From assembly GCF_002218195.1 (NCBI RefSeq), contig NZ_CP022336.1:1731001-1795000 (forward strand): a stretch of DNA of 64,000 bases, in the 5' to 3' direction. Below the pieces are notes generated by a model that worked only from the letters and a program-made list of their open reading frames with translations, made no database searches and was not told the origin of the DNA. Origin of the DNA: Sphingorhabdus sp. SMR4y (GTDB taxonomy: Bacteria > Pseudomonadota > Alphaproteobacteria > Sphingomonadales > Sphingomonadaceae). The first letter of the stretch is position 1. The number at the start of each line of letters is the position of its first letter. The position numbers and the translations under genes are program-made. This document shows positions 6,901 to 38,160 of this stretch, piece after piece.

Positions 6901-9900
6901 GGCTCCGCCCGGAGGCACGAGCCCTGGCGTCGATATATAGCTGTAAGTGCCGTCGCTGCTGATCGTCAGCTTGCCATAGGTTCCGTTGACAACAGTGCCG
7001 ACATTGCCCGAAACCGCGCCGCTAATATCATTACCGGTCGCGACCCCTGTCACGGCACCGGAGGATGCGAAACCGTCTGCACCTGCTGAATCACCAGTAA
7101 CCGCATCGGTGACGACATTTCCGCCGATTGTTGCGCCTTCCGCCACGGTGGCGGTGTCGGCAACGGCAGACGGACTATCGTCTTCTATGGTAATGGTCAG
7201 GCCTGTCGCATTGGTCGTGCTGACCGTTCCGTCATCCGATGTCACCGGAACGGTGAAGACCAGCTGATCTTCGCCAGCCGTTTCGAAGCCCGTATCCGGA
7301 TGGTCGATCTTGCCGATCAAGGTGACGGTGTAATTGCCGCTATTGTCGATAGTGATCTGAATAACGGCACTTCCGCCCGCCGATCCGGTCAGCGTCTGCG
7401 TTCCGACGCCGCTCCACGTGACTGCAGCGCTTCCCGAAGTCAGAACCGCACCGGGATCTCCCAGCGTTACTGTCTGCGCCTCGCCATCGACATCGGTGAC
7501 GGTGATCTGGCCCGTGACAGTGGCTGCATCGGTCGTATCGCTGCTCCCCGCCGCCGCAGCGCCGTCGGCGATACCGCCAGCCAGCCCTTCTTCGGAAACA
7601 ACGGCCGTGGCTGCTCCCACTTGCGGAGCATCATTGGTGCCATTGATGGTAATCGTCAGGGTCGTAGTCGCAATATCGCCATCAGCGTCGGTAATTGTGT
7701 ACGTGAAAGTTTCAGTCAGCGTCTCACCGTCATCGAGCCCTTGAACGGCCGGATCGCTATTGGCCAGCATATAGCTGTAGCTGCCATCTGCGTTCAGCGT
7801 CAGTTTGCCATAAGCGCCATCCAGCGCGGTGCCGACGGTGCCAGCGATCAGGCCGAATGCAATGCCGGTGACCATCACGCCGTCTGCGCCCTGGACATCC
7901 GCGACGCCGTCGGTAGCGTTGGCATCCGCGCCGCCGATGCCGGTGAGCACATTCCCGTCAGCGACTAACGCGCCGTCTTCCTTGACCGAGTCAACATCGG
8001 CAAAGGCTGTCGGGACATCGTCGGAAACATTGATGTTGACCGTACCGGCAGCGGTATCGCCATCACTGTCTGTCGCCACCACCGTAACCGAACCGAGTGC
8101 CTGCAGATCATCGGCGGTGAACACAGGATGGCTGTCATAATTGTCGTTCAGCGTTGCTGTCACCGTCGCAACATTGGCAGAAACCGACAGAGACAGGGTT
8201 ACGACGACATTTGTGCCATCGCTGCCCGTGATCGTGTTGCTGTCAACACGTACCCATGTCAGCCCACCCGACAATGCGCTGAGATCCGTGCCAAAAACGA
8301 TCGAACTGATCGCATCGGATCCGGCAGTAAACGTAATATCCCCGCTGACAAAGTCGGGACCTGCCGGTGTCGAACCGTCGGCCAGATTCTGATCATCAAG
8401 GGTCAGCGTTATCGGGTCACCCGCGATCGGATCGGCGCCATCGGTAATCGAGATAGGCTGCTCCGCCGTCGCGATATCGCCGTCGCCGTCGGTGATTGTA
8501 TAGGTGAAGGACGCATCGACATCACCGCCGCTCTGGTCGAGATTCGGGTTCGGGTCGAATGTCCAGGCTCCGGAAGCTGTGAACGAATAGGTTCCGTTAG
8601 CCGTTACCACCTCGGTTGTTCCGACTGCATTGATCGTCGTGCTAACGCCACCGATCGTGACAGAAGTAACCACTGCGCCGTCAGCACCTTGCGTATCATT
8701 GGCCAGCACATTGCCGCCCACGGTGCCCGGAGCATCTTCTGCCAGCGTTATCGCCAGATCGTCTGCGGCAATCGGCGCATCATCGATAATATCGATCGTC
8801 AATATGCCATTCGATATGTCGCCGTCTATATCCGTAACCACTATGGCGAAGCTGTCGCTGGTAGCATCGCCCAAACTATTGTCGGTCAGCGTATAGCTGT
8901 AGGTGATCGAACCATTGGTGATACCGGTGATGGTCAAGGTGCCCGAAGCGCCAACAAAAGTCTGGCCGACCGCAGTCACCGCCACGCCGTCGATCGTGAC
9001 AGTGCCGGGACCGTCCGGCGCATCAAATGTGATCGTTCCCGCCGTAGACTCGCTATCTGCAGGTTCGTTTGTACCTTCCGGCTCAGCGCCACGATTGGGC
9101 AGTCCCGATTCGTCGACGATGGTCCCCGCTTCACCGCTGACCGGCAGGGTCAGGGTGACCGGACTGTCGGCAATATCGATGGTCAGGGTCGTTACCGACG
9201 TGTCGCCGTCGCCGTCCTGCAGCGTATAGGTAAACACATCCTGCACGCCGCCCGGACTGTCGGCATTGCGCGCATAGCTGTAGCTGCCGTCGGCATTGAG
9301 GGTCAGAACCCCGTACAGGCCGTTGACTGTCGTCCCGACCGTCGCGGCATCAACCAGCACAGCGCCGGTATCTCCTGCCGCAACCCCGGCCACGACCGCG
9401 CCGTCCGCGCCCTGGGTGTCGGCGCCGCCGTCAGCTTCGCTGTCGGTAATCACATTGCCCGTCGCCGGACCATAGTCGCCCGCCGCTATGCTGTCCGTGT
9501 CCATCACGGCAACCGGGGCATCGTCGATGATCGCGATGCTCAGCGTGCCGGAAGCGGCATCGCCGTCCTGATCGGTGATCACGACCGCAAAATCATCGCT
9601 CGTATTGTCGCCAGCCGTATTGTCGGTCAGCGTATAGCTGTAGGTGATCGAACCGTTGGTGATACCGGTAATGGTCAAAGTGCCCGAAGCGCCGACAAAA
9701 GTCTGGCCGACCGCAGTCACCGCCACGCCGTTAATGGTCACCGTTGCCGGTCCGTCAGCAGCAGTGTAGCTGATCGTTCCCGCTGTTGTTTCCAGATCGG
9801 ACGCTTCGTTCGAACCAGGCGATTCCGACCCGCGTGCCGGCAGGCCTTCCTCATCGACAATCGCGCCCGCTTCACCGCTGACCGGCAGGGTCAGGGTGAC

Positions 9901-12900
9901 CGGACTGTCGGCAATATCGATGGTCAGGGTCGTTACCGACGTGTCGCCGTCGCCGTCCTGCAGCGTATAGGTAAACACATCCTGCACGCCGCCCGGACTG
10001 TCGGCATTGCGCGCATAGCTGTAGCTGCCGTCGGCATTGAGGGTCAGAACCCCGTACAGGCCGTTGACTGTCGTCCCGACCGTCGCGGCATCAACCAGCA
10101 CAGCGCCGGTATCTCCTGCCGCAACCCCGGCCACGACCGCGCCGTCCGCGCCCTGGGTGTCGGCGCCGCCGTCAGCTTCGCTGTCGGTAATCACATTGCC
10201 CGTCGCCGGACCATAGTCGCCCGCCGCTATGCTGTCCGTGTCCATCACGGCAACCGGGGCATCGTCGATGATCGCGATGCTCAGCGTGCCGGAAGCGGCG
10301 TCGCCGTCCTGATCGGTGATCACGACCGCAAAATCATCGCTCGTATTGTCGCCAGCCGTATTGTCGGTCAGCGTATAGCTGTAGGTGATCGAACCGTTGG
10401 TGATACCGGTAATGGTCAAAGTGCCCGAAGCGCCGACAAAAGTCTGGCCGACCGCAGTCACCGCCACGCCGTTAATGGTCACCGTTGCCGGTCCGTCAGC
10501 AGCAGTGTAGCTGATCGTTCCCGCTGTTGTTTCCAGATCGGACGCTTCGTTCGAACCAGGCGATTCCGACCCGCGTGCCGGCAGGCCTTCCTCATCGACA
10601 ATCGCGCCCGCTTCACCGCTGACCGGCAGGGTCAGGGTGACCGGACTGTCGGCAATATCGATGGTCAGGGTCGTTACCGACGTGTCGCCGTCGCCGTCCT
10701 GCAGCGTATAGGTAAACACATCCTGCACGCCGCCCGGACTGTCGGCATTGCGCGCATAGCTGTAGCTGCCGTCGGCATTGAGGGTCAGAACCCCGTACAG
10801 GCCGTTGACTGTCGTCCCGACCGTCGCGGCATCAACCAGCACAGCGCCGGTATCTCCTGCCGCAACCCCGGCCACGACCGCGCCGTCCGCGCCCTGGGTG
10901 TCGGCGCCGCCGTCAGCTTCGCTGTCGGTAATCACATTGCCCGTCGCCGGACCATAGTCGCCCGCCGCTATGCTGTCCGTGTCCATCACGGCAACCGGGG
11001 CATCGTCGATGATCGCGATGCTCAGCGTGCCGGAAGCGGCGTCGCCGTCCTGATCGGTGATCACGACCGCAAAATCATCGCTCGTATTGTCGCCAGCCGT
11101 ATTGTCGGTCAGCGTATAGCTGTAGGTGATCGAACCGTTGGTGATACCGGTAATGGTCAAAGTGCCCGAAGCGCCGACAAAAGTCTGGCCGACCGCAGTC
11201 ACCGCCACGCCGTTAATGGTCACCGTTGCCGGTCCGTCAGCAGCAGTGTAGCTGATCGTTCCCGCTGTTGTTTCCAGATCGGACGCTTCGTTCGAACCAG
11301 GCGATTCCGACCCGCGTGCCGGCAGGCCTTCCTCATCGACAATCGCGCCCGCTTCACCGCTGACCGGAAGGGTCAGGGTGACCGGACTGTCGGCAATATT
11401 GATGGTCAGGGTCGTTACCGACGTGTCGCCGTCGCCGTCCTGCAGCGTATAGGTAAACACATCCTGCACGCCGCCCGGACTGTCGGCATTGCGCGCATAG
11501 CTGTAGCTGCCGTCGGCATTGAGGGTCAGAACCCCGTACAGGCCGTTGACTGTCGTCCCGACCGTCGCGGCATCAACCAGCACAGCGCCGGTATCTCCTG
11601 CCGCAACCCCGGCCACGACCGCGCCGTCCGCGCCCTGGGTGTCGGCGCCGCCGTCAGCTTCGCTGTCGGTAATCACATTGCCCGTCGCCGGACCATAGTC
11701 GCCCGCCGCTATGCTGTCCGTGTCCATCACGGCAACCGGGGCATCGTCGATGATCGCGATGCTCAGCGTGCCGGAAGCGGCATCGCCGTCCTGATCGGTG
11801 ATCACGACCGCAAAATCATCGCTCGTATTGTCGCCAGCCGTATTGTCGGTCAGCGTATAGCTGTAGGTGATCGAACCGTTGGTGATACCGGTGATGGTCA
11901 AGGTGCCCGAAGCGCCGACAAAAGTCTGGCCGACCGCAGTCACCGCCACGCCGTTGATGGTCACCGTTGCCGGTCCGTCAGCAGCAGTGTAGCTGATCGT
12001 TCCCGCTGTTGTTTCCAGATCGGACGCTTCGTTCGAACCAGGCGATTCCGACCCGCGTGCCGGCAGGCCTTCCTCATCGACAATCGCGCCCGCTTCACCG
12101 CTGACCGGAAGGGTCAGGGTGACCGGACTGTCGGCAATATCGATGGTCAGGGTCGTTACCGACGTGTCGCCGTCGCCGTCCTGCAGCGTATAGGTAAACA
12201 CATCCTGCACGCCGCCCGGACTGTCGGCATTGCGCGCATAGCTGTAGCTGCCGTCGGCATTGAGGGTCAGAACCCCGTACAGGCCGTTGACTGTCGTCCC
12301 GACCGTCGCGGCATCAACCAGCACAGCGCCGGTATCTCCTGCCGCAACCCCGGCCACAACCGCGCCATCCGCGCCCTGGGTGTCGGCGCCGCCGTCGGCT
12401 TCGCTGTCGGTAATCACATTGCCCGTCGCCGGACCATAGTCGCCCGCCGCTATGCTGTCCGTGTCCATCACGGCAACCGGGGCATCGTCGATGATGGAAA
12501 TAGTCAGATCGGCATTGGCAACATCGCCGTCAGCATCGACCACGGAAACCGCGAACAGATCAGCCGTGTTATCCCCCGATGTGTTATCGCTCAGCGTATA
12601 GGTATAATCGATGGAACCATTGCTTATGCTGGTAATCGTCAGCGTGCCGAAATTGCCGACAAAGCTTTGCCCAACAGCAGTGACAGCGACTCCGTTGATC
12701 GAAACGACCGCCGGACCATCGCCGGGAATGAATATAATAGAGCCGACAGTGGTTTCACCATTGCCGGCAGCATTTGTTCCTTCCGGCTCGCTGCCGCGCG
12801 CAGGCAGGCCGGATTCGTCGACGCTGCTGGAGGCATTGGTCGCACCGGTCGGATTATCCGGCGTAACGATAACGACAGCCGGCAGCTCGTCTTCGTCATC

Positions 12901-13404
12901 CTCGGGCTCGAACGGAAACAATTCATCCTGCTCGAATTCCGGGAAGGAAAGCGCGGTCGGTGGCAACAGATCACCCAATGCAAACGGATCGCCGATATCG
13001 CCGACTGGATCGGCGAAATTTCCGCCCGAACTCTGCGGCGGACCAGCAGCAGGCTGTGGTTCGTTGCCGACCAGCAAGGCCGCCAGATTGAGAGGGGGAA
13101 CGGACACACCGTCAATGACAAGCTGAGGGATGAACACCGCGCCGTCAGGGATGACCAAATCGTTTCCGTCAGGCAGGCTGATCACGAGATCGCGGCCAAC
13201 TACCCGGATGTCATCCAATTCAACGCCCGCCGGCAAAATTACCGTGTTTTGCGTTCCTGCCTGAAGCGCCGGAATGGAACCTGCAGCCTGAAGGCTTACC
13301 GTTGAGCTGAAAGACGCTTCGCCACCATAATTCCCGCCATCCCGGCTATCGTTGTTGGCCGGGGTGTCGAAATTTTGGTCCAGGCTATTGTGCTCGAAAT
13401 CCAT
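925..13404 (-). CDS. Giant type I secreted repeat adhesin (T1SS-143/VCBS-like repeats, 4159 aa)
   Basis: A 4159-residue acidic protein, very poor in Cys. Residues 1-150 hold a Bap-prefix-like segment (VELDDIRVVGRDLVISLPDG), then a Pro/Glu-rich linker (about 150-190). From about 190 on there is a long chain of Ig/cadherin-like repeats of two kinds: one with DESGLPARGSEPEGTN openings and IDDAPVA endings (DUF5801/T1SS-143 type), one VCBS-like (DGSYSYARNADSPGG, DVFTYTLQDGDGDTS). Residues about 190-1425 are nearly identical 247-residue units; later repeats are diverged. The last ~390 residues are Ala/Glu-rich with no RTX GGxGxD nonapeptides that I can see. The DGDGD motifs are typical calcium-binding linkers. 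The product is probably exported by the neighbouring TolC-dependent type I system and used for surface or biofilm attachment. The ATG at 13404 opens a soluble N-terminus without a Sec signal, as expected for type I substrates. Confidence 0.92.
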   Translation of the reverse strand: MDFEHNSLDQNFDTPANNDSRDGGNYGGEASFSSTVSLQAAGSIPALQAGTQNTVILPAGVELDDIRVVGRDLVISLPDGNDLVIPDGAVFIPQLVIDGVSVPPLNLAALLVGNEPQPAAGPPQSSGGNFADPVGDIGDPFALGDLLPPTALSFPEFEQDELFPFEPEDDEDELPAVVIVTPDNPTGATNASSSVDESGLPARGSEPEGTNAAGNGETTVGSIIFIPGDGPAVVSINGVAVTAVGQSFVGNFGTLTITSISNGSIDYTYTLSDNTSGDNTADLFAVSVVDADGDVANADLTISIIDDAPVAVMDTDSIAAGDYGPATGNVITDSEADGGADTQGADGAVVAGVAAGDTGAVLVDAATVGTTVNGLYGVLTLNADGSYSYARNADSPGGVQDVFTYTLQDGDGDTSVTTLTIDIADSPVTLTLPVSGEAGAIVDEEGLPARGSESPGSNEASDLETTAGTISYTAADGPATVTINGVAVTAVGQTFVGASGTLTITGITNGSITYSYTLTDNTAGDNTSDDFAVVITDQDGDAASGTLSIAIIDDAPVAVMDTDSIAAGDYGPATGNVITDSEADGGADTQGADGAVVAGVAAGDTGAVLVDAATVGTTVNGLYGVLTLNADGSYSYARNADSPGGVQDVFTYTLQDGDGDTSVTTLTINIADSPVTLTLPVSGEAGAIVDEEGLPARGSESPGSNEASDLETTAGTISYTAADGPATVTINGVAVTAVGQTFVGASGTLTITGITNGSITYSYTLTDNTAGDNTSDDFAVVITDQDGDAASGTLSIAIIDDAPVAVMDTDSIAAGDYGPATGNVITDSEADGGADTQGADGAVVAGVAAGDTGAVLVDAATVGTTVNGLYGVLTLNADGSYSYARNADSPGGVQDVFTYTLQDGDGDTSVTTLTIDIADSPVTLTLPVSGEAGAIVDEEGLPARGSESPGSNEASDLETTAGTISYTAADGPATVTINGVAVTAVGQTFVGASGTLTITGITNGSITYSYTLTDNTAGDNTSDDFAVVITDQDGDAASGTLSIAIIDDAPVAVMDTDSIAAGDYGPATGNVITDSEADGGADTQGADGAVVAGVAAGDTGAVLVDAATVGTTVNGLYGVLTLNADGSYSYARNADSPGGVQDVFTYTLQDGDGDTSVTTLTIDIADSPVTLTLPVSGEAGAIVDEEGLPARGSESPGSNEASDLETTAGTISYTAADGPATVTINGVAVTAVGQTFVGASGTLTITGITNGSITYSYTLTDNTAGDNTSDDFAVVITDQDGDAASGTLSIAIIDDAPVAVMDTDSIAAGDYGPATGNVITDSEADGGADTQGADGAVVAGVAAGDTGAVLVDAATVGTTVNGLYGVLTLNADGSYSYARNADSPGGVQDVFTYTLQDGDGDTSVTTLTIDIADSPVTLTLPVSGEAGTIVDESGLPNRGAEPEGTNEPADSESTAGTITFDAPDGPGTVTIDGVAVTAVGQTFVGASGTLTITGITNGSITYSYTLTDNSLGDATSDSFAIVVTDIDGDISNGILTIDIIDDAPIAADDLAITLAEDAPGTVGGNVLANDTQGADGAVVTSVTIGGVSTTINAVGTTEVVTANGTYSFTASGAWTFDPNPNLDQSGGDVDASFTYTITDGDGDIATAEQPISITDGADPIAGDPITLTLDDQNLADGSTPAGPDFVSGDITFTAGSDAISSIVFGTDLSALSGGLTWVRVDSNTITGSDGTNVVVTLSLSVSANVATVTATLNDNYDSHPVFTADDLQALGSVTVVATDSDGDTAAGTVNINVSDDVPTAFADVDSVKEDGALVADGNVLTGIGGADANATDGVADVQGADGVMVTGIAFGLIAGTVGTALDGAYGKLTLNADGSYSYMLANSDPAVQGLDDGETLTETFTYTITDADGDIATTTLTITINGTNDAPQVGAATAVVSEEGLAGGIADGAAAAGSSDTTDAATVTGQITVTDVDGEAQTVTLGDPGAVLTSGSAAVTWSGVGTQTLTGSAGGSAVIQITIDNSGNYTVTLIGKIDHPDTGFETAGEDQLVFTVPVTSDDGTVSTTNATGLTITIEDDSPSAVADTATVAEGATIGGNVVTDAVTGDSAGADGFASSGAVTGVATGNDISGAVSGNVGTVVNGTYGKLTISSDGTYSYISTPGLVPPGGATDTFVYTVTDGDGDTSTTTLTISLNDSGLAASSDDVSVNEAALDTVGSDPASNAETISGTIADNVTGGTGPYSYTVVGSNVGSNGTLTLNPDGSYSYTLTTPVTGATANDGANIENDVETFTIEVKDANGNTTTTTITVDIIDDIPSTTSNTAVQLDDDALGGNAGGTGDVDPDTANATGTLNHVFGADGGTLSLLASGTPPTGFTYEISGGDLLIKQGATTVITVTLDSATGAYTVTQNAPIDHAAGLDENDISFTLNYQVTDGDGDVAAGSLQINVDDDTPTVSVVSPPVSLVVDETDLGTDASASFAGIFASSFGADGAGSITYALGTIAGLSGLVDTATGQNVLLSLNGTVVEGRTETGGDLVFTITVAADGTVTLDQVRAVVHGTNPDPNDPASLSAANLVTLTATVTDGDGDSATAIADIGSSFVFRDDGPSIDAAVSDADTVMLVTQDADTVGPASDMAVSTANFGGAFSIASSSYGADGAGSTAWSYALVVDNAVSGLSSDGVPITLTLNGTVVEGRAGADLIFTIATDAATGVVTLTQFAEIDHGLPGDSSGYDAQLATLANGLVSLEGTATITDGDGDTASETVSLDLGGNVKFADDGPSVTATPTAAMLMVDETALGTDATADLSGAFAVVYGADGAGTTTYALSISATDADSGLVDVATGEAVLLRVNGNIVEGYSATGGVVFTLSVNASGVVELDQLRAVEHTPDTGADQSAGLAGTNLITLTATATDGDGDTASGAIDLTGALTFKDDGPSIDAAVDAATAVMLVTQDAETDGDPTDQDIASTTANFGGAFSIASSSYGADGAGSIAWSYALVVDSATSGLTSGGDAITLYLVSGTVVGSTAADAGSITAGNTIFTIGTDAVTGVVTLTQFAEIDHDTPGVGADYDLQQAILGDGLVSLEGTATITDRDGDSASETVSLDLGGNIKFDDDGPSANPGNSTGTVDEDGLAGGIEGGTGDIAGVVTSVSGNVTALFNAGADAPLTYQLLTDTSGLPALTSGGTPVTYAVVNNVLTASAGGNPVFTFTLNETSGAWDFVLSGPLDHAIGDNENDIVLSLGSLLQATDFDGDFVTAAGSVVITIDDDTPTATNEASQNVNEGATVSGTLDFLGGADSATVTHVNGAALVFTAGPAEFSDWVDIGDGMIRVKADGSYEFTADNPTVSPVTPTTATFTVTDGDGDTATANISFQILDANVPTAGTSAALVDDDGLAGGNPLSTIDGATDANADGDNNPATFGGILTHNFGGDGAGSINFASMDGLTATIGQETVTYAWSGSTLTATITGGARNGIDLFTVEVTDSATGAYEVTLLDNVLHATGPNDENATDPVAVLGYTVLDADGSSASGTLNISFDDDAPTAADLDGDMLTVGNFVNAMADGTFTYAPGADGHSQFDITGPAITGITYTTTHTATGSVLTASADTIDLFTLAVNTDGTYKFTLLSPDAAVDETISFANLSAGGPGFRELEDDPATLGINEAGRVEFQSNGTGVNASTQGFGVSNQFLDQNEWFEMEFHDPGTLGNDDPWVNADNLGSVTLNIQQVKSGPVDIEWTATRYNSDGTVAATETGTTTITSTGAITIDPTIEFSVLRIENIDSNANASVRIATDITVSRTILPTDQEYEFGIVGIDGDGDETSLSTIDVLIDASITSMVLPLAPMAPLAPVNFLGVENEPVLQSADSGERIASNDNGGLMLQNISGLGENVALIEPAKVETTPAAKTMLANSNEAQAARAGVKAPATAPIALAATLLAANSRPEESAGSRDAPLAEVGNQAALDFQAADNQPQPEAVQLDGGEVANDESGPAGQDTASGNYSGGSGEALAEAAVDAGEEMFAEESSGGNDAQPGFDASEFQPASGLQLDMGIAMNVEALAPVGETPAPVQLDIPAPDTPPATVEEIVADAIDGGSPEIVSIDAVIDTFAGNETEGGRGAIEHLPEHSLPEQVLDMFVLGDVGPLSPVVSDGLQTQIDMADAGQAAG
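9128..12490 (-). repeat. Near-perfect 741-bp tandem repeat inside the adhesin gene (about 4.5 copies)
   Basis: The segment beginning CTTCACCGCTGACCGG recurs at 9129, 9870, 10611, 11352 and 12093, a constant 741-bp spacing (247 codons, in frame). The copies differ by only a handful of bases, for example GGCAGG versus GGAAGG, TCGATGG versus TTGATGG, and gcatcg versus gcgtcg. The fifth copy diverges after about 12490. DNA-level identity, including third codon positions, implies recent duplication or ongoing gene conversion rather than selection on the protein alone. Confidence 0.95.
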
Positions 13405-13862
13405 ATCAAATTCCCGTCAGGATGAGTTGCGTGTTGGCTGGCAAAGCAGAACCGCTTGGGGAGAAATATCCCGCCAAGGTCCCGGCTGCTTTCGTATCGG
13501 ACGACGTCCAGCTGCCTTCGATGGTCGCATCGAAAGTTGGTCCGAAATAAATCGAAAACACACGTCTGTTCTGCATAGTCGCCCCGCAGCCAAATGAGGG
13601 TCAGCGAGAGGAAAGTCCTCGTAGCCGGTCCCGAAACAAAAATTGGATTGAGGGGCGACCCGAAAATTTAAAATTAGGCTCAATCCGCGCTCAGATTTAT
13701 ATTTTGATTCAATTTCAGAGTCACGGCGATTAACTATTTATTAAGGAATTTTTCCAGAATTTTATCCCGATTTTACAGAAATTTACCTAAAGTTTTAAAT
13801 CGAAAGTATGAGAAAGGATATAACTGCTGACAAAGGCAGATTATTGATGCAGGGTTTGTTGC
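13405..13862. other. Divergent intergenic region between adhesin and histidine kinase genes
   Basis: 458 bp with no convincing gene. The first half is GC-rich; the second half (about 13675-13862) is strongly AT-rich and must carry the promoters of both divergent transcripts. A leftward 88-codon frame here (13417-13683) has no recognisable features and I do not regard it as a gene. One clear regulatory motif is listed separately. Confidence 0.7.
13730..13744. promoter_or_regulatory. CtrA-type box TTAA-N7-TTAA
   Basis: The sequence TTAACTATTTATTAA is a perfect match to the alphaproteobacterial CtrA recognition pattern TTAA-N7-TTAA. It lies in the AT-rich divergent promoter region, about 325 bp from the adhesin start and 118 bp from the kinase start. 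CtrA commonly controls pilus, adhesin and motility genes in this class. The match is seen directly; function is inferred, and such a short motif can occur by chance in AT-rich DNA. Confidence 0.45.
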
Positions 13863-15623
13863 ATGGGAACACAGCCAACGGAACGTAACACCGCTCAAAA
13901 CGACTCCGAGTCGCCGACCCATGGATCAGATGTTGTCGATTTCCTGCGCCGACACATTGTGATCCTCCTGAATGTCGTTCTGGCTGCGGCCAGGATTCTG
14001 TTTTCGGTCGTATTGCTGGATTCCATCGTGAACCGAGACGATTTCCGATGGACGACAATAGACTGGCTGGCTCTGCTTCCGCTCGCTTGGGCTCTATTGG
14101 CTATCGCGCTGGCGCTGACCGGGCGATTCCGCTGGAAAACGGGCGGACGGATAATGGTTGTTGCCGACATGTTGGTCAGCGCAGTCGTGATTGTTATTTT
14201 TCCCGCTTACACATTATCCGCGCTCGCATTGGCGGTCCTTTCAATGACATTCATGATTTTAAGGCGCGCGGGCCGTTTTAGCTTATTGCTCTCGGGCCTC
14301 CCGTTGGCTGCAATGCTTGTTCGTCCGCTGGGGATCCTGAATTTGTCCGGCATGGTGTGGCCAGTGAGTTATGCGAGCCTTGGCGGCGCTGGAGAAATTG
14401 TCGCGTTTCTGCTTTCGCTATTTTGTGCCCTGTTTTCTATCTTGATCATCATTCATATCCGAATGGTTGAACGGCCGCTGAGATTTCAGCAACCTTGGGA
14501 AGAAGAGTTTGCAGTGGGCGTCGGCAAACATAATATCGCAACAGTCATTGATTGTATCCAGATGATTTATCCGGATAGCCGGCTCGTTTGCATCCTGGAC
14601 AGTCCCAACAGACGGGAAGGAAAAGCAGTCATAACGAGTTCCAACATTCCACGATCAGACGTTGCATCGCTGCAATCCCAATTGACGGATTATATGTCTC
14701 ACGGCACTCGGCCTACCATTCTGGAACTGGACGATGACATTCAAACTGAAATTGGAAGTGGCCGCAGATCTCCGATCCCTGCGTCTTTAGAAAAAATGAC
14801 TCGTGGGCTGACCGGACTGGGTTTCAACAACGGGATCCTCGTTGATTTCAAACTCGGCAGCAATCGCGGACGTCTATTTTTTTCGACGGGCACACCGATC
14901 GAAGAGTCTCTGAGAAATGACATGATAATGCTGACCCGGCAGCTGGACCGATTTTTCTACAATGCGACAAATTGGGATAAAAGGCGTCAAGAAATGATGG
15001 GCTTGGCGCGCGATCAGGCGCGTCGGGATCTGCATGATGGTATATTGCAGTCTCTCGCAGCATTAAAAATGCGGCTGGTTACAATCATATCAGCCCCCGG
15101 ATTCTCTTCTCGTCCCGATATCGACGCCTTGCGCAAGACCATTGATATGGTCACCGTGGAGCAGACCAGATTGAGGGCGCTGCTGCACAATGATGAAGCA
15201 GACAATGATTCAGTAGATCTCGTTGAAATGATAGAAGTCTGCCTGAAGACTCTCAGTATCCAGTGGGGAATATCGGTAACATTGGCGTCGCAAGAACCAG
15301 CACTTCCGGTGGATCACGAATCTGCCAAGAATATAGAATATCTGGTGCGCGAGATCATTGCCAACGCTATTCGCCATGCAGGGGCAAAGCAGCTGACATT
15401 CGCAATGGCATTAAGCAAAGGGGTTTTAATAATGACTTTGAAAGACGATCTAAGCGCTTCGAACTTGCAGACTGATAGCGTTCATGCGGCCCGGGAGATA
15501 TTAACCTCGCGTTCCCTTTCGCAGCGACTGGAACTGGTCGACGGTCACGCCTATTCGGAAGGTCTGGAAGACAGTACCTTGCTCTCGATTAGTATTCCTA
15601 TGGATTTTACTGAAAATGATTAA
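13863..15623 (+). CDS. Membrane sensor histidine kinase, NarX/DesK (HisKA_3) type
   Basis: A 586-residue protein. The N-terminal part (about 28-200) contains five or six hydrophobic segments. A cytoplasmic linker of about 200 residues follows, with no recognised sensor domain. The HisKA_3 dimerisation box has the phospho-acceptor His near residue 391 in RRDLHDGILQSLAALKMRL. A HATPase_c domain follows with an N box EYLVREIIANAIRHAG near 490-505. The G boxes are weak (LKDDLSASN), so ATP binding may be atypical. Its stop overlaps the start of the LuxR-type regulator by 8 bp, so the two are cotranscribed and presumably a cognate pair. Lying between the adhesin and the Tad operon, it is a good candidate regulator of one or both (inference). 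The start has only a weak AGGG upstream. Confidence 0.88.
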   Translation: MGTQPTERNTAQNDSESPTHGSDVVDFLRRHIVILLNVVLAAARILFSVVLLDSIVNRDDFRWTTIDWLALLPLAWALLAIALALTGRFRWKTGGRIMVVADMLVSAVVIVIFPAYTLSALALAVLSMTFMILRRAGRFSLLLSGLPLAAMLVRPLGILNLSGMVWPVSYASLGGAGEIVAFLLSLFCALFSILIIIHIRMVERPLRFQQPWEEEFAVGVGKHNIATVIDCIQMIYPDSRLVCILDSPNRREGKAVITSSNIPRSDVASLQSQLTDYMSHGTRPTILELDDDIQTEIGSGRRSPIPASLEKMTRGLTGLGFNNGILVDFKLGSNRGRLFFSTGTPIEESLRNDMIMLTRQLDRFFYNATNWDKRRQEMMGLARDQARRDLHDGILQSLAALKMRLVTIISAPGFSSRPDIDALRKTIDMVTVEQTRLRALLHNDEADNDSVDLVEMIEVCLKTLSIQWGISVTLASQEPALPVDHESAKNIEYLVREIIANAIRHAGAKQLTFAMALSKGVLIMTLKDDLSASNLQTDSVHAAREILTSRSLSQRLELVDGHAYSEGLEDSTLLSISIPMDFTEND

Positions 15624-33439: not shown

Positions 33440-33598
33440 GTGAAAAATAGAAATGATAATATCGGCAACGATCAGGCGACGACCGAATTGAAAACCTGGG
33501 AAAAGCCCAAGCTGGTTGTTTTCGAAGTGACCCCGGCAACCAAAGGGAAAGTCGCTACCTTTGTAACAGAGTTCAATGCGAGCTACGGAGTAAGCTAA
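33440..33598 (+). CDS. Lasso-like RiPP precursor peptide 1 (52 aa)
   Basis: GTG start at 33440, immediately after an in-frame TAA and 8 bases after AAGGGG, so this is the only good start. Leader: WEKPKLVVF carries the aromatic-x-x-P-x-L motif (W20, P23, L25) that PqqD-like B1 proteins recognise in lasso leaders. T34 is at -2 and G36 would be core residue 1. The core would be GKVATFVTEFNASYGVS with Glu at position 9, the correct spacing for a Gly1-Glu9 macrolactam, and it ends in Ser. The spacing from W20 to G36 (16) is close to that of paeninodin. It is followed on the same strand by beta-hydroxylase, HPr-kinase-like, PqqD-like and sulfotransferase genes. Seen: the motifs and spacing. Inferred: that it is a modified peptide. 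Confidence 0.72.
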   Translation: MKNRNDNIGNDQATTELKTWEKPKLVVFEVTPATKGKVATFVTEFNASYGVS

Positions 33599-33743
33599 CC
33601 GAAATCCAACGGCATTTGAAATATGTGCTGACAGGCTTGGCTGATCGGTGGTCAAACGCAGTTGGATTTTTTGCTTTCAGTTGCACATGATGCCCGATCC
33701 CAAGCCTGCAAAGTGCACGTAATATTTTTGTCCGGTATTGTGC

Positions 33744-34319
33744 ATGATTAAAGTTCCAAAGCCTGCGACAATATTGAATCTCGGTCCCGTTGACGCAAAC
33801 GCGATTATGGATCGGCTTTCGATGCTGTCTGATACGGCGTGGGAATCTGAAGACGCCGCAAAAGAAAATAAGTATCGCTGTTTTCAAAATACAAAACATA
33901 TAATTCATCGTTTCATCCCGAAAAATCGGGATCCTTTGATGAGTTATGACACGCGGGCATGGTTCATATGGAAAGATCTGCTCATGCCGATCATGGACCA
34001 TGCGACCCGCCAATATGGCTATAGAGAACGGGCCTATCCCAAAAGCATGTTTGCGCGTCTGGCTGCCGGGAAAGTGATCGAGCCGCATTGTGACGGCGCA
34101 GGCTCCCACCTACTGACTCATAAAATCCACATTCCGCTGGCCACAACCCCTGATGCCACTTTTCAGGTTGCCGGCGAGACATTTCACTTGCCCGCCGGAC
34201 ACGCCTTCGAAGTCAATAATATTGTGGAACATGGGGCGTTCAACCGCGGTCAGACAGACCGGATCCATTTCATTTTCGAGATGTATGATGCGTCGCAATT
34301 GTCTTCGCAAGCGGCATGA
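33744..34319 (+). CDS. Aspartyl/asparaginyl beta-hydroxylase-type Fe(II)/2-oxoglutarate dioxygenase
   Basis: A 191-residue protein of the Asp/Asn beta-hydroxylase (cupin) family. The iron ligands are visible in EPHCDGAGSHLLTHKIHIPL (H-x-D near 114-116) and a distal His in VEHGAFNRGQTDRIHFIFE (about 162), with the following Arg as the likely 2-oxoglutarate partner. Such enzymes hydroxylate the beta-carbon of Asp or Asn; relatives tailor lasso peptides. The predicted core of precursor 1 has one Asn (position 11); precursor 2's core has no Asp or Asn. I start at ATG 33744; a TTG two codons upstream is less likely. The stop overlaps the kinase-like gene by 4 bp (ATGA). Confidence 0.85.
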   Translation: MIKVPKPATILNLGPVDANAIMDRLSMLSDTAWESEDAAKENKYRCFQNTKHIIHRFIPKNRDPLMSYDTRAWFIWKDLLMPIMDHATRQYGYRERAYPKSMFARLAAGKVIEPHCDGAGSHLLTHKIHIPLATTPDATFQVAGETFHLPAGHAFEVNNIVEHGAFNRGQTDRIHFIFEMYDASQLSSQAA

Positions 34320-35293
34320 GCTTTAGCTATTCCGCTTACGGGCTCAATTTCCGGTCTGACATTAGCCTGCCATTTCAGCCGACCTCTCCCCGCGAAAAGG
34401 CCGACGTCACTGTAGAATTTGGAGAGATCCCGGAGGCCCTTGGCGCAGGCGCGGTTGCGTGGAGAAACTGGCAAGCGGACGACAGCGGCTTTTTGCTCTG
34501 TAACGACGGAATTCCGTGCATATTTGTTAGCGGCGGTGACACGATGATCATAGCGCCGCATTGCAAACCGTTTATCCAGGATATCATGGGCCAGATTCTG
34601 GGATCGGCCAGCGCCGGTCTGCTGCACCAAAGGCAGCATTTCCTCCTGCACTCAAGCGCCATTGCTACGGAGCGGGGTGCAGCGGCATTTGCGGGGCGAT
34701 CGGGCGCAGGAAAATCAACATTGCTGGCCGAATTCCTGAACCGGAAAGCTGTCGCCTTGTCGGACGATGTTCTGGCCATATCAACGCGAGATACCAGTCA
34801 AATCATTGCGTCACCCAGCTATCCCGTTCAGAAGCTTTGCGCCGATGTTCTGGAACGCAGCGGGAAGAACGCCGCCGAACTGCAGCCGATTTTGAACAAC
34901 CGGTCCAAATTTTATGCGCCGATTGAAGACTTTGCTCGAAAGCCTGCTCCCTTGCGGGCGATATTCTGCATGGAGGCTTGTGACGTGCAATCACCGGTCT
35001 TTGATATTGTGACACCCCAACAAGCTATGCCCCTGATCGCAAAAGCCAGTTATCGTAAGAAAATCGCTTATGCACTGGGCTTTGCAAAACAGCATTTTCA
35101 AAATGTCGAAAAGCTCGCCAGAAACGTAACGGTAATTCATGTCAGAAGACCGCGAGACATTGATAGCATCTCGCAAATCGCCGACATGGTCGAGGAAAGG
35201 CTTGCGACACTTCCAGCCCGCAAAATTCACGATGCCGCCCGTTCTTGTAAGTTAGAACATGCCGCGCTAGACAATTTTTCACCGCGATCCTGA
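34316..35293 (+). CDS. HPr-kinase-like protein (HprK-related, RiPP-associated)
   Basis: A 325-residue protein with the HPr kinase C-terminal fold: HSSAIATE (about 117), P-loop AGRSGAGKSTLLAEFL near 126-141, and the acidic pair in ALSDDVLAI (about 150). It lacks the regulatory N-terminal domain of true HPr kinase. Relatives in lasso clusters (for example PadeK of paeninodin) phosphorylate the C-terminal Ser of the precursor; here both candidate precursors end in Ser. It is coupled to the hydroxylase by a 4-bp overlap and precedes the PqqD-like gene by 36 bp. Confidence 0.87.
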   Translation: MSFSYSAYGLNFRSDISLPFQPTSPREKADVTVEFGEIPEALGAGAVAWRNWQADDSGFLLCNDGIPCIFVSGGDTMIIAPHCKPFIQDIMGQILGSASAGLLHQRQHFLLHSSAIATERGAAAFAGRSGAGKSTLLAEFLNRKAVALSDDVLAISTRDTSQIIASPSYPVQKLCADVLERSGKNAAELQPILNNRSKFYAPIEDFARKPAPLRAIFCMEACDVQSPVFDIVTPQQAMPLIAKASYRKKIAYALGFAKQHFQNVEKLARNVTVIHVRRPRDIDSISQIADMVEERLATLPARKIHDAARSCKLEHAALDNFSPRS

Positions 35294-35329
35294 AACTCAG
35301 GCGACCATTCTAGAACATCAGGGAGCTTT

Positions 35330-35632
35330 ATGACTATTCCAGAAAATTTGGACGATTCTGATATCTTTCGTCCGACAACAAAGGTTCTGTTGTCAGAGCT
35401 TGATGACGGAATTGTGATGATGGACGTCGATACCGCCGACTATCTGGCACTGAATCCGGTTTCATCACGCATATGGTCTTTGATTGGACAGGATCTCGCG
35501 CTTTGCGATATTTACGCAGAATTGCGCAAGGAATATCAGGTTGATCATGACACCTGCAGGAGCGAAGTGCGCGATTTTGTCGGAGATCTGCTCGACCGCG
35601 GATTCATCGAACATGTTTCAGCTCAGGCATAA
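35330..35632 (+). CDS. PqqD-like RiPP recognition protein (lasso B1-type)
   Basis: A 100-residue winged-helix protein of the PqqD family. Characteristic parts are DDGIVMMDVDTADYLALN, PVSSRIWSLIG and a C-terminal helix FVGDLLDRGFIEHV. PqqD domains bind the leader peptide and present it to the modifying enzymes; the discrete B1 form recognises YxxPxL leaders. It has a good ribosome site (GGGAGC) before ATG 35330 and sits 36 bp after the kinase-like gene and 8 bp before the sulfotransferase gene. Confidence 0.9.
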   Translation: MTIPENLDDSDIFRPTTKVLLSELDDGIVMMDVDTADYLALNPVSSRIWSLIGQDLALCDIYAELRKEYQVDHDTCRSEVRDFVGDLLDRGFIEHVSAQA

Positions 35633-35640
35633 GATATAGC

Positions 35641-36495
35641 GTGACTAACGTTCAGGATCAGACATCCGGTGTTTTGAGACGATCCGGCCGATTTTTCGGT
35701 GCACAGAATGATCTGCCGAACAGGGTCAAGACGCATCTTTTCATCCTCTGTCCGAATAACAGTGGCTCGACCTATCTGGAACGGGTTATTGCAGAATGCG
35801 AACAGGTCTGGTCCCTGCAACGTGAAGGCCAGCATATTTTCGGATTTTCCGGCCCGACGAGCCGAAAAACCAACACATCTCTGGCGTGGAATGCCAAGCC
35901 GGAAACGGCTGAATTATTTTCGGACGCGGCAAATTATCCAAGTTGGGAAAGCACAAAGAAGGCCTGGTATTTTCAGGCAACAGCCAAAAGCCCGAACGCC
36001 GTTGTCTTTCTTACCAAATCGCCGCCGTTCCTTCTGATCCCGCAAATTTTGCAAGATAATTTTGACAATACCAAGTTTATTTTCATGGTGCGCAATCCAT
36101 ATGCTGTGGCGGAAGGTATCGGGCGACGCCGGCCCGAGATGGCACCCGACAGACAGTCCTGTCTCAAATTGGCGGCCGATCATATCGTAGCCTGCATGAA
36201 GTCCCAGCGAGACAATATCAGGCGATATCCTGACAATAGCATTTTCTTCAGATATGAAGACATGTGCCAATCGCCCGAAGAAACGGCCGACAACATTCGG
36301 ACATTGATACCGGAACTCTCCGATCTGGCGTTTGACGACATCATCACGGTAAAAAATTACCGGCAACATTTGCACAATTTCAATGACGAGCAAATCGCCC
36401 GGCTTTCAGACAGCGACATTGCCTGCCTGAACCAGACCTTCCAGAGGGAAAAGTCAGTATTCGAGCATTTTGGCTATGAAATTATTGCAAGTTGA
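35641..36495 (+). CDS. PAPS-dependent sulfotransferase
   Basis: A 284-residue protein starting at GTG 35641, 8 bp after the PqqD-like stop. The 5'-phosphosulfate loop is PNNSGSTYLERVI (about 38-50) and the 3'-phosphate binding segment is KFIFMVRNPYAVAEGIG (about 143-160). FFRYEDMCQSPEETADNIR is typical of the C-terminal part. It should move sulfate from PAPS to a hydroxyl or amine. In this operon a peptide hydroxyl (Ser, Thr, Tyr, or the hydroxyl made by the neighbouring dioxygenase) is a reasonable but unproven target. Confidence 0.85.
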   Translation: MTNVQDQTSGVLRRSGRFFGAQNDLPNRVKTHLFILCPNNSGSTYLERVIAECEQVWSLQREGQHIFGFSGPTSRKTNTSLAWNAKPETAELFSDAANYPSWESTKKAWYFQATAKSPNAVVFLTKSPPFLLIPQILQDNFDNTKFIFMVRNPYAVAEGIGRRRPEMAPDRQSCLKLAADHIVACMKSQRDNIRRYPDNSIFFRYEDMCQSPEETADNIRTLIPELSDLAFDDIITVKNYRQHLHNFNDEQIARLSDSDIACLNQTFQREKSVFEHFGYEIIAS

Positions 36496-36583
36496 AATGG
36501 TTGCATATGTTTGCCGTCGCTGATGCCGGAACATATTCAAGATTATACTATCGAATTGGCGTTGCAGCCATCCGGACTCCACT

Positions 36584-37291
36584 TTGCACATCTCAAATCG
36601 GATGCATCCAGCTTTCGAATTAGAGGAATCCATTGAAAGTGCAAAAAGCGGATTGACCCGACATAAAACCGGATGCAACTTAGACTTTGAAGTATCTACA
36701 TTTTTAGACAGGCCAGCGGTGCCTAGCAAAGGGCTGAAAACAGTGAAACAGCCAGAACTAGCCGATAAAACGGCAGATCAAGCAACACAGCTTTGTACAA
36801 ATTGCGGTATTTGCTGCGATGGAAGTATTTTTAATTCTGCCAGATTGGTGCCGGAAGATGGTGCCGTCACAAGTCCATTGCGAACTTCTTCGGACGACGG
36901 AGACGACGGCTTATATTTAAAAATACCGTGCGCCGCCCTCGACAATTCACGAAAATGCAGCGTTTACCCGAACCGGCCGGAAATATGCGGGAGCTTTCGC
37001 TGTGCACTTTTGCGCAAGCTTGATGCTGGCACCATATCATTGTCTAGTGCGCGGAAAAAAGTTGAGCTCGCTCTAGAACAACGTGAAAAAACACTCGAAA
37101 TTGTCAGGCAGTTTGTTGCTGTCGAAGATCGTGATCTGCGCGCAATCCATCGGGAATACCTGAATTTAGGAGACGATCCCGAATCGGACAATCAACGTTT
37201 ATATAAAGAAGGTCAGCTCTTGCTGAACGCACTAAGGCGTTATCTGCGTAAGAATTTTCACCCTAACAGTAGATTTCTCGAAAAGACATAG
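36584..37291 (+). CDS. YkgJ-like CxxCxxCC cysteine-cluster protein
   Basis: Up to 235 residues. The zinc/iron-chelating YkgJ signature is CTNCGICCDGSIF (about 71-83), followed by CAALDNSRKCSVYPNRPEIC and FRCALLRKL, giving about eight Cys in the usual spacing. The C-terminal ~85 residues are helical. The start is uncertain: TTG 36584 or ATG 36599 give a non-conserved N-terminus, and GTG 36744, preceded by AAAGGG, is a good alternative. The gene is visibly AT-richer than the Tad genes. It follows the sulfotransferase by 88 bp on the same strand and faces precursor 2. Relatives are often of unknown function; some occur with peptide-modifying genes. Confidence 0.8.
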   Translation: MHISNRMHPAFELEESIESAKSGLTRHKTGCNLDFEVSTFLDRPAVPSKGLKTVKQPELADKTADQATQLCTNCGICCDGSIFNSARLVPEDGAVTSPLRTSSDDGDDGLYLKIPCAALDNSRKCSVYPNRPEICGSFRCALLRKLDAGTISLSSARKKVELALEQREKTLEIVRQFVAVEDRDLRAIHREYLNLGDDPESDNQRLYKEGQLLLNALRRYLRKNFHPNSRFLEKT

Positions 37292-37378
37292 TTACTTTAC
37301 GTCTGTTTACAGAAAATCAAAGCATGCATGAAGAGATTATCAGAAAAGCGGAAGCTAGCAATACCTTGGACTTGATGA

Positions 37379-37534
37379 CTAGCTCGGACCTTGACCCGTG
37401 CCAGCTTCTGTAATCTTCGTTGCCTTACCGTCCGTTTGATCTTCTAGTTCGATTTCAATCAGAACTGGTTTCTCATAAGGCAGTTTCTGGGCTCGGCCTT
37501 GGTTGGCGGCTATTTTAGAAGATTCACGAACCAT
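37379..37534 (-). CDS. Lasso-like RiPP precursor peptide 2 (51 aa)
   Basis: ATG at 37534 with AAGGA eight bases upstream; too short for most gene finders. The peptide parallels precursor 1 without gaps from residue 20: YEKPVLIEI gives Y20, P23, L25; T34 is at -2; G36 is core residue 1. The core would be GKATKITEAGTGQGPS, with Glu at position 8 (ring of eight), ending in Ser. The two peptides share EKP, L25, T34, G36-K37 and the T-E pair, though the rest differs. It lies convergent to the YkgJ-like gene with 87 bp between the stops. Confidence 0.7.
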   Translation of the reverse strand: MVRESSKIAANQGRAQKLPYEKPVLIEIELEDQTDGKATKITEAGTGQGPS

Positions 37535-37566: not shown

Positions 37567-37610
37567 TGCCCCGTCATATTTAACTTTATGCCCCGTCATA
37601 TTTAACTTTC
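37567..37610. repeat. Tandem 22-bp duplication upstream of precursor 2
   Basis: TGCCCCGTCATATTTAACTT occurs twice head to tail (37567-37588 and 37589-37610, unit 22 bp, one terminal mismatch). It is 33-76 bp upstream of the precursor 2 start, so it may be a regulator binding site or part of the promoter. Confidence 0.75.
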
Positions 37611-37728: not shown

Positions 37729-38160
37729 TTAACATAGACTTACCCTGAGAATGATATTCAAGTGGCCGCATTTGTCCGTCGTCAGAACATTTGACTCGAC
37801 TATGGACTCGATATCAGCATCCCAATCCCATTCGCCTACCCCTTCCGTGAACTTCTCTTCCTCAGCTTCGCTCAAGGCTTTGTACCAATCACCAGCTATA
37901 GCCCTGCACTGCCTTGCAGTTAGGGCCACGGGGACAGCCGCCTTGGCTGCTCGGAGCAGTGATATCCGTTCTTCAATCGGAGAGAGCCAAGCGCCTAGCT
38001 CGGCCTTTGCCTGCTCTTCCGAGAGGGAGGCAGGCCAAGTCTTCTTTTCTTCGCGCTTTTTGTATGCTGCCCGTACGTCTGAGGGGATCACTTTCCGCGA
38101 TGCCCAACGGCCCGACTTTGTCCTTGTCAGAGCGACCATTGCAATACCCATTTGTACCAC
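37729..38160 (-). pseudogene. Tyrosine recombinase (integrase), N-terminal remnant
   Basis: A 143-codon frame whose product begins near MVALTRTKSGRWASRKVIP and continues EERISLLRAA, like the N-terminal arm-binding and core-binding parts of sphingomonad phage integrases of about 400-500 residues. It ends after NVLTTDKCGHLN with unrelated residues, and no catalytic R-H-x-x-R-Y domain follows on either strand to 37300. So it is a truncated integrase, left by an older element. The start could be the ATG at 38151 or at 38139. It lies 69 bp from the tRNA-Thr fragment, as integrase genes normally do. Confidence 0.65.

Follow-up and report, generated by a model that had tools for sequence, protein, structure and literature searches.

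Dispersed lasso-like precursor peptides and a candidate precursor-less enzyme locus in Sphingorhabdus sp. SMR4y

The stretch of Sphingorhabdus sp. SMR4y analysed here (64,000 nucleotides, hereafter the window; G000:C1:1731001-1795000, G000 being a single-contig genome of 3.48 Mb) contains two small open reading frames (ORFs), P1 and P2, whose translations have the geometry of lasso peptide precursors and which lie on either side of a set of putative peptide-modifying enzymes. P1 and P2 probably belong to a genome-dispersed multi-precursor lasso system, in which an enzyme set located upstream of the window (locus A) would act in trans. P1, with its tryptophan-type (W-type) leader, would borrow the B2 protease of this set and a cyclase either from there or from a second locus (locus B). 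Genes, motifs, families, synteny, dispersal and co-occurrence were read from the sequence, and from these we infer trans-processing, lasso topology, modification sites and the channelling of W-type and tyrosine-type (Y-type) leaders.

In the initial annotation P1 and P2 had been described as lasso-like precursors bracketing a modification operon, and both ORFs were recovered at the same coordinates (Table 1), with the residues, the spacing, the serine ends and the differing cores all borne out. By hand count, P1 (leader WEKPKLVVFEVTPATK, core GKVATFVTEFNASYGVS) shows W20, P23, L25, T34 at position -2, G36 as core +1 and a glutamate at core +9, and its C-terminus reads Y-G-V-S; P2 (leader YEKPVLIEIELEDQTD, core GKATKITEAGTGQGPS) shows Y20, P23, L25, T34 (-2), G36 (core +1), a glutamate at core +8 and serine as the last residue. 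Shine-Dalgarno (SD)-like sequences, AAGGGG and AAGGAT, were seen by eye in front of the P1 and P2 ORFs. The local alignment of the two peptides scored 61, a value equalled in none of 5000 shuffles, and none of the Pfam and NCBIfam models matched either of them at E 1. A test profile of 15 relatives, with P1 and P2 excluded, was compared with the 1446 stop-to-stop frames of at least 25 aa in the window: P2 ranked first (E 3.1e-12) and P1 second (E 3.1e-7), followed by a frame with an E of 1.2; the test is not fully independent, since these relatives had been found via searches seeded with P2 and, from profile A6 onwards, also with P1. With P2 alone removed from the profile, P2 was recovered at E 3.3e-12. 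The top two ranks rule out P1 and P2 as chance ORFs, and relatives with identical spacing found by the profile searches support their lasso-precursor geometry.

A first profile, built from three sequences (P2 and relatives), gave further stand-alone precursors, and wider profiles followed. Strong precursors were defined by an E below 1e-13, and all 17 of them are rows of the final profile, A7; this set excludes the peptide of locus B (see below), the LFRAS peptides, the hits in genomes G002, G065 and G410, and weaker hits. Ten were found in G000, four in G405 and three in G413, taken as the assembly of Sphingorhabdus sp. 109. The ten of G000 occupy eight sites spread over ~1.25 Mb, at 1564, 1573, 1764 (P1), 1768 (P2), 1847, 1969 and 2778 kb and, as a tandem trio, at 2809-2810 kb. 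Leave-one-out E values for the strong precursors ranged from 8.4e-8 (P1) to 7.7e-17, and P1 is a divergent member of the family. The leader motif Y/WxxPx[L/V/I], a core residue 1 that is G, S or A, a core glutamate at position 8 or 9 and a final serine are present in 17/17 rows. When the cores were shuffled 100,000 times, residues 1-2 and the final one being kept in place, no shuffle had a glutamate at 8 or 9 in more than 11 rows.

Seven of the G000 precursors (all but P1, P2 and the one at 1847 kb) are found, by eye, beside unrelated-looking genes, such as a glutamine synthetase, a Sir2-like deacetylase with a permease, or a peroxiredoxin, and no common upstream motif was seen among the ten by eye. 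Such surroundings, together with the variation of precursor presence between species and one degenerate copy in G410, would fit stand-alone precursors that are unmatured relics, left behind when ordinary lasso clusters were lost or shuffled. We regard this as improbable, since the dispersed precursors are open frames with start codons and SD-like sites (the latter by eye), the lasso glutamate is retained in 17/17, and the proportion of nonsynonymous differences (pN) in the leaders (0.05-0.27) is lower than that of synonymous ones (pS, 0.18-0.83) in 5/5 pairs. Occupied sites are also shared, the Sir2 site holding three, two and one precursors in three species, and a site beside a CxxCxxCC gene being occupied in two. 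The clearest pair (G000 2810 kb and G405 1720 kb) is identical at 31/35 leader and 7/18 aligned core residues, while other pairs are less contrasted, with for example 23/32 leader and 11/19 core residues identical.

The sole B2 of G000 above the PF13471 cut-off (1720818-1721156) lies ~43 kb upstream of P1. It belongs to locus A, which is found 43-49 kb upstream of P1, encodes an HprK-like kinase, a sulfotransferase, an ATP-grasp protein, a cyclase-like protein (C), a RiPP (ribosomally synthesised and post-translationally modified peptide) recognition element (RRE, or B1) and B2, and is adjoined by a major facilitator superfamily (MFS) transporter gene. The B1 scores 85.5 bits against NF033536 (cut-off 80) and the B2 70 bits against NF033537 (cut-off 33); the asparagine-synthase-like proteins of locus A and locus B matched the lasso cyclase model NF033535 best, with 240 and 324 bits, which do not reach its cut-off of 525. 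The C, B1 and B2 of locus A are 83-92% identical between G000 and both G405 and G413. Neither motif scans nor profile searches found a precursor at locus A in these three genomes (3/3), and a precursor inside the locus was rejected as a candidate.

According to the proposed mechanism, locus A would serve the stand-alone Y-type precursors, P2 among them, in trans: its B1 would grip the YxxPxL leader, B2 would cleave immediately before core residue 1, C would join the amino group of residue 1 to Glu8 or Glu9, and the kinase would modify the serine, while the neighbouring MFS protein may export the product. The W-type P1 would be modified as a precursor by its own operon (hydroxylase, C-terminal-Ser kinase and sulfotransferase, the last probably acting near the C-terminal Tyr) and would then be matured by the only B2 detected in the genome and the cyclase of locus A or locus B. 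The same RRE-leader grip could also lead to a non-lasso product, for instance linear peptides phosphorylated at their C-terminal serine, given that PQQ and LPP peptides are reported to use YxxP leaders as well (PMC13381572) and that kinases and serine ends are present. Such a product is quite unlikely in the light of the fixed spacing between G/S/A1 and Glu8/9, of the presence in the genome of a B2 and of a lasso-cyclase-related protein, and of G002, which belongs to another genus and has a related peptide 1.9 kb from a B2. A hit in G065 is located 10.6 kb from a B2, and its core has no acidic residue at 8 or 9.

The dispersed lasso system is further supported by co-occurrence in the genus set (32 genomes, with a high-quality subset of 24, own genome included; the statistics ignore relatedness). 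B2 was present in 5/32 genomes and strong precursors in three, all of them B2-positive. Among the high-quality genomes, strong precursors were found in 3/3 B2-positive genomes vs 0/21 others (Fisher 0.0005), and after removal of G000, the source of the seed, in 2/2 vs 0/21 (0.004, by hand). For precursors vs B2, the Fisher value was 0.0076 with G410 and 0.0020 without it.

With respect to the two leader types, the W leader was present in 6/6 precursors linked to a hydroxylase and sulfotransferase (P1 and five others) and in 0/16 others, all of which have Y. The six W-type precursors also share a Y-x-x-S end, which occurs in 2/16 others (p 0.0004; p 0.0010 without the L032 precursor, which is closely related to that of L031; both uncorrected for relatedness), and because of this shared end the C-terminal Tyr may be proposed as a sulfation candidate and the final Ser as the kinase site. 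Relatives of the window hydroxylase were found in 12/149 family genomes, own genome counted, and a single locus was examined from each of the 11 others. In four of these (L029, L031, L032 and L033) the gene order is sulfotransferase, hydroxylase, kinase, sulfotransferase, RRE, cyclase-like gene and GT8 glycosyltransferase (in L029 one sulfotransferase is placed at the far end of the cluster), and in 4/4 a small precursor is located between the RRE and the cyclase-like gene; the remaining seven loci had nothing beyond at most one additional oxygenase nearby. L033 contains a B2 (PF13471, E 6.6e-18), a nucleotidyltransferase and an ABC transporter, G044 (the genome of L029) has a B2 12.5 kb from the hydroxylase, and a genome-level PF13471 search gave one B2 apiece in G015 and G104. 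With relatives that adjoin a precursor and a cyclase-like gene in 4/11 loci, the P1 operon is similar to the tailoring genes of a lasso cluster and would be related to operons inside such clusters. Shared features are the tailoring genes and a W-type precursor ending in YxxS; the difference is that the four clusters carry a cyclase-like gene (and L033 a B2), whereas the window operon has neither.

Three of the 11 plasmid matches of the kinase were examined in context: one (H3) lies inside an annotated paeninodin-family lasso cluster, one (H2) has a lasso-type PqqD and an Asn synthase as neighbours, and the region viewed around the third (H4, Tistrella) had no lasso gene. A further lasso-like cluster with a W-type precursor, locus B, was observed at ~332-341 kb of G000 (L014, G000:C1:326001-345000, positions 5652-15412). 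It comprises an RRE, a cyclase-like gene, GT8, two sulfotransferases, three putative oxygenases and two kinase-like proteins, the second of which is without DD, and transposase-like genes were seen by eye directly downstream. No B2 above the PF13471 cut-off was found in locus B.

The separation of the two leader types has a parallel in Bacillota, where RREs are reported to distinguish a W from a Y in the first position of the leader, Asn and Asp contacting Tyr-type leaders and a paeninodin-type RRE having Gly and Gln there (PMC13381572). We mapped these columns by way of an annotated paeninodin-family RRE (L139), which has a spacing of 37 residues between its Gly and Gln, like that of the published pairs. 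The RREs of locus A have N/D at the Tyr-contact columns in 3/3 genomes, and those beside W-type precursors have N/E (window and locus B), D/Q, E/D, E/E or D/D, with N/D in 0/6. The Gly/Gln pair of paeninodin-type RREs is absent here, the window RRE having N/E and that of locus A N/D. Based on the W/Y split of the leaders and on the RRE contact residues, we infer that P1 belongs to the RRE of the window and P2 to locus A. Since an actinobacterial RRE is described as promiscuous in the same source (PMC13381572), the rule may not hold here.

P2 itself is convergent with a gene for a CxxCxxCC (YkgJ-type) protein. A P2 paralogue at ~1847.8 kb of G000 is arranged tail-to-tail with another CxxCxxCC gene, and the pair of CxxCxxCC gene and precursor recurs at the corresponding position of Sphingorhabdus sp. 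109, making three places in all; the paralogue and the relative in sp. 109 are linked to CxxCxxCC genes without the rest of the window operon. The two CxxCxxCC proteins of G000 share 51% identity, and the CxxCxxCC protein is likely a dedicated partner of P2, as its recurrent placement suggests. Relatives with E <= 1e-12 were found in 10/298 genomes, own included. Ten CxxCxxCC loci of nine other family genomes showed no convincing precursor within ~1.5 kb, and in a set of 12 loci a precursor was seen by eye within 6 kb only at L055 and L058. A general lasso linkage of CxxCxxCC proteins was rejected, the distant relatives being mostly without a precursor nearby. At L058 (5016-6408, from a Myxococcales metagenome-assembled genome) a lasso-like cluster of a B2, a PqqD, an HprK-like protein, an Asn synthase and a precursor was recognised by eye, the CxxCxxCC gene being two genes away from the precursor. 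No sequence relative of the CxxCxxCC protein was found in the PDB at E 0.1, and its structure model is of middling confidence (pLDDT, predicted local distance difference test, 71.7).

These results bear on the reading of P1 and P2 as a substrate pair of the operon between them, proposed in the initial annotation. Their position, the ungapped likeness in the leader and at the start of the core, and the reported promiscuity of RREs outside Bacillota (PMC13381572) all speak for a pair, and yet we consider it highly unlikely: the leaders differ (W vs Y), P2 is on the opposite strand, and its paralogue and its Sphingorhabdus relative are linked to CxxCxxCC genes in the absence of the remaining operon. 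The bracketing therefore stands as geometry, not as a joint unit, the evidence placing P1 and P2 in separate units. The earlier observation is real and of greater interest than claimed, although partly misread.

Several results weigh against the dispersed system with locus A acting in trans. Y-type sequences served as seeds for the search, and the profile contains the Glu column; the first Y-type profile did not recover P1 at E 0.01, and P1 was then added by hand. P2 as a lone query matched none of 396 other family genomes. Thr occupies position -2 in only 10/17 rows (A in three, V and S in two each); Ile or Val at this position is reported for other lasso precursors (PMC10368454). In the cores pN is 0.24-0.55 and exceeds pS in only 1/5 pairs, so that core divergence is no proof of diversifying selection. 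The kinase, sulfotransferase and ATP-grasp gene are absent from the 17 kb read around locus A of G413, and L058 combines a Y leader (YRAP) with a D/D RRE, so N/D is not required for Y. G404 and G409, both imperfect assemblies, have a B2 and no precursor hit; the B2 loci of G404 share no gene with locus A, while that of G409 does. G410 (67% complete) has a hit (1.6e-8) with a degenerate, non-lasso core and no B2 was found in it. That hit (G410:C165:3210-3386, L119) consists of a precursor-like leader with HGK, followed by a frame without the lasso Glu or the Ser end, and is perhaps a decayed precursor copy. Family-wide, the profile matches 3/397 genomes; co-occurrence outside the genus means little, because B2 is present in 178/397 of them.

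The lasso geometry and the enzymes are known. HprK-like kinases are reported to phosphorylate the C-terminal Ser of paeninodin and SyanA (PMC9266682, PMC8498205). Systems of this type share with the one described here the H...GKS...DD kinase, the PqqD-like RRE, B2, a cyclase and Ser-ending cores (PMC9266682), but have their precursor within the cluster, whereas here the searches gave none at the enzyme locus, the precursors being scattered. Likewise, some lasso clusters are reported to encode multiple precursors (PMC13381572), with divergent cores and the same leader motif; these lie inside the cluster, in contrast to the eight sites over ~1.25 Mb in G000. A search of the open-licence literature (titles and the start of abstracts) gave nothing on dispersed lasso precursors among the matches listed, nor did it bring up a precursor-less synthetase locus together with precursors spread over the chromosome and a second gated branch.

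The prochlorosins, a group of lanthipeptides, are made by one promiscuous synthetase from many precursors with a conserved leader and a diverse core, several of them encoded remote from the enzyme. The conserved leader, divergent core and precursors away from the enzyme are found here as well, but the chemistry of prochlorosins is different, and the present proposal is one of lasso geometry with two RRE specificities. We would give even chances to a wider proposal, namely a diversity-generating lasso system with one precursor-less synthetase locus and many precursors, in which the W-gated P1 branch would add hydroxylation, phosphorylation and sulfation, the RRE residues and the W/Y position would keep the branches apart, and the CxxCxxCC protein would be a new lasso partner.

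Lasso precursors are customarily sought beside B2 and C. If stand-alone precursors are real, cluster-based mining undercounts lasso peptides, and "precursor-less" clusters may make many of them. Ten natural cores on one machinery would then reveal the sequence tolerance of B1, B2 and C, and W- and Y-gated RREs in one alphaproteobacterial genome would extend the rule reported for Bacillota (PMC13381572).

Table 1. Features around P1 and P2 (positions within the window).
Feature	Position	Strand	Remarks
GT8 glycosyltransferase, divergent from P1	32311-33195	-	PF01501 E 6.8e-22
P1, W-type lasso-like precursor	33440-33598	+	GTG start, 52 aa
Aspartyl/asparaginyl beta-hydroxylase-like	33744-34319	+	PF05118 E 1.9e-13; alternative ORF start TTG 33738
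HprK-like kinase	34316-35293	+	weak HprK-related models, all below cut-off
PqqD-like RRE (B1-like)	35330-35632	+	PF05402 E 2e-15
Sulfotransferase	35641-36495	+	PF13469
CxxCxxCC (YkgJ-type) protein, convergent with P2	36584-37291	+	PF03692 E 5.9e-8; start uncertain
P2, Y-type lasso-like precursor	37379-37534	-	ATG start, 51 aa
Two direct copies, 22 bp apart, containing GTTAAATATGACGGGG (- strand)	37567-37609	.	upstream of P2

Among the genes of the P1 operon (Table 1), the putative tailoring hydroxylase has homologues with 50-52% identity in L029, L031, L032 and L033, and the sulfotransferase, which possibly tailors P1, has homologues with 45-51% identity in locus B, L029, L032 and L033. The kinase retains the H...GxxGxGKS...DD motif, as does the kinase of locus A, and would be expected to phosphorylate the C-terminal Ser. 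The best NCBIfam model for the RRE was lasso_PqqD_Bac (E 1.1e-14, below the model cut-off). The GT8 possibly belongs to the tailoring set, because homologues are present in locus B, L029, L031, L032 and L033.

Pfam and NCBIfam searches of the 64-kb window found neither a B2 protease nor a C cyclase, and a local B2 or C was rejected on these searches, which a much diverged protease might escape in the case of PF13471. The usual arrangement, with B2 and C in the cluster of the precursor, was not found at the window locus; their presence beside the precursor is customary and no chemical necessity.

The direct repeat upstream of P2 is a possible candidate operator, and its 16-base core has no further exact copy in the loci compared. 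Further downstream, phage-like genes were seen by eye (window 37729-64000), including a lysozyme-like ORF and, at 37729-38160, a putative integrase N-terminal fragment with a weak match to DUF6538. A prophage att/tRNA origin at 38.2 kb was rejected: the window contains no tRNA, and neither its 55-64 kb part nor L007 has a convincing repeat.

Genes named like those of the clusters L029, L031, L032 and L033 co-occur with salt tolerance in (Allo)pontixanthobacter in Table 2 of PMC10040529, and the sections consulted do not present them as a single lasso cluster. The likeness is one of gene name and not of sequence, and this co-occurrence table gives only a hint of salt stress as a role of the peptides.

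Finally, a small conserved peptide was observed at G000:C1:3100968-3101039 (L114 6953-7081, + strand), which shares the leader grip (KPELIQLSEIHE) and has no Glu at 8 or 9. It is also present in G405, G413 and G414, the last being a genome in which no B2 was found, and with its near-invariant end (mostly KTDALLTSLFRAS) it would represent a different RiPP-like or non-lasso peptide.

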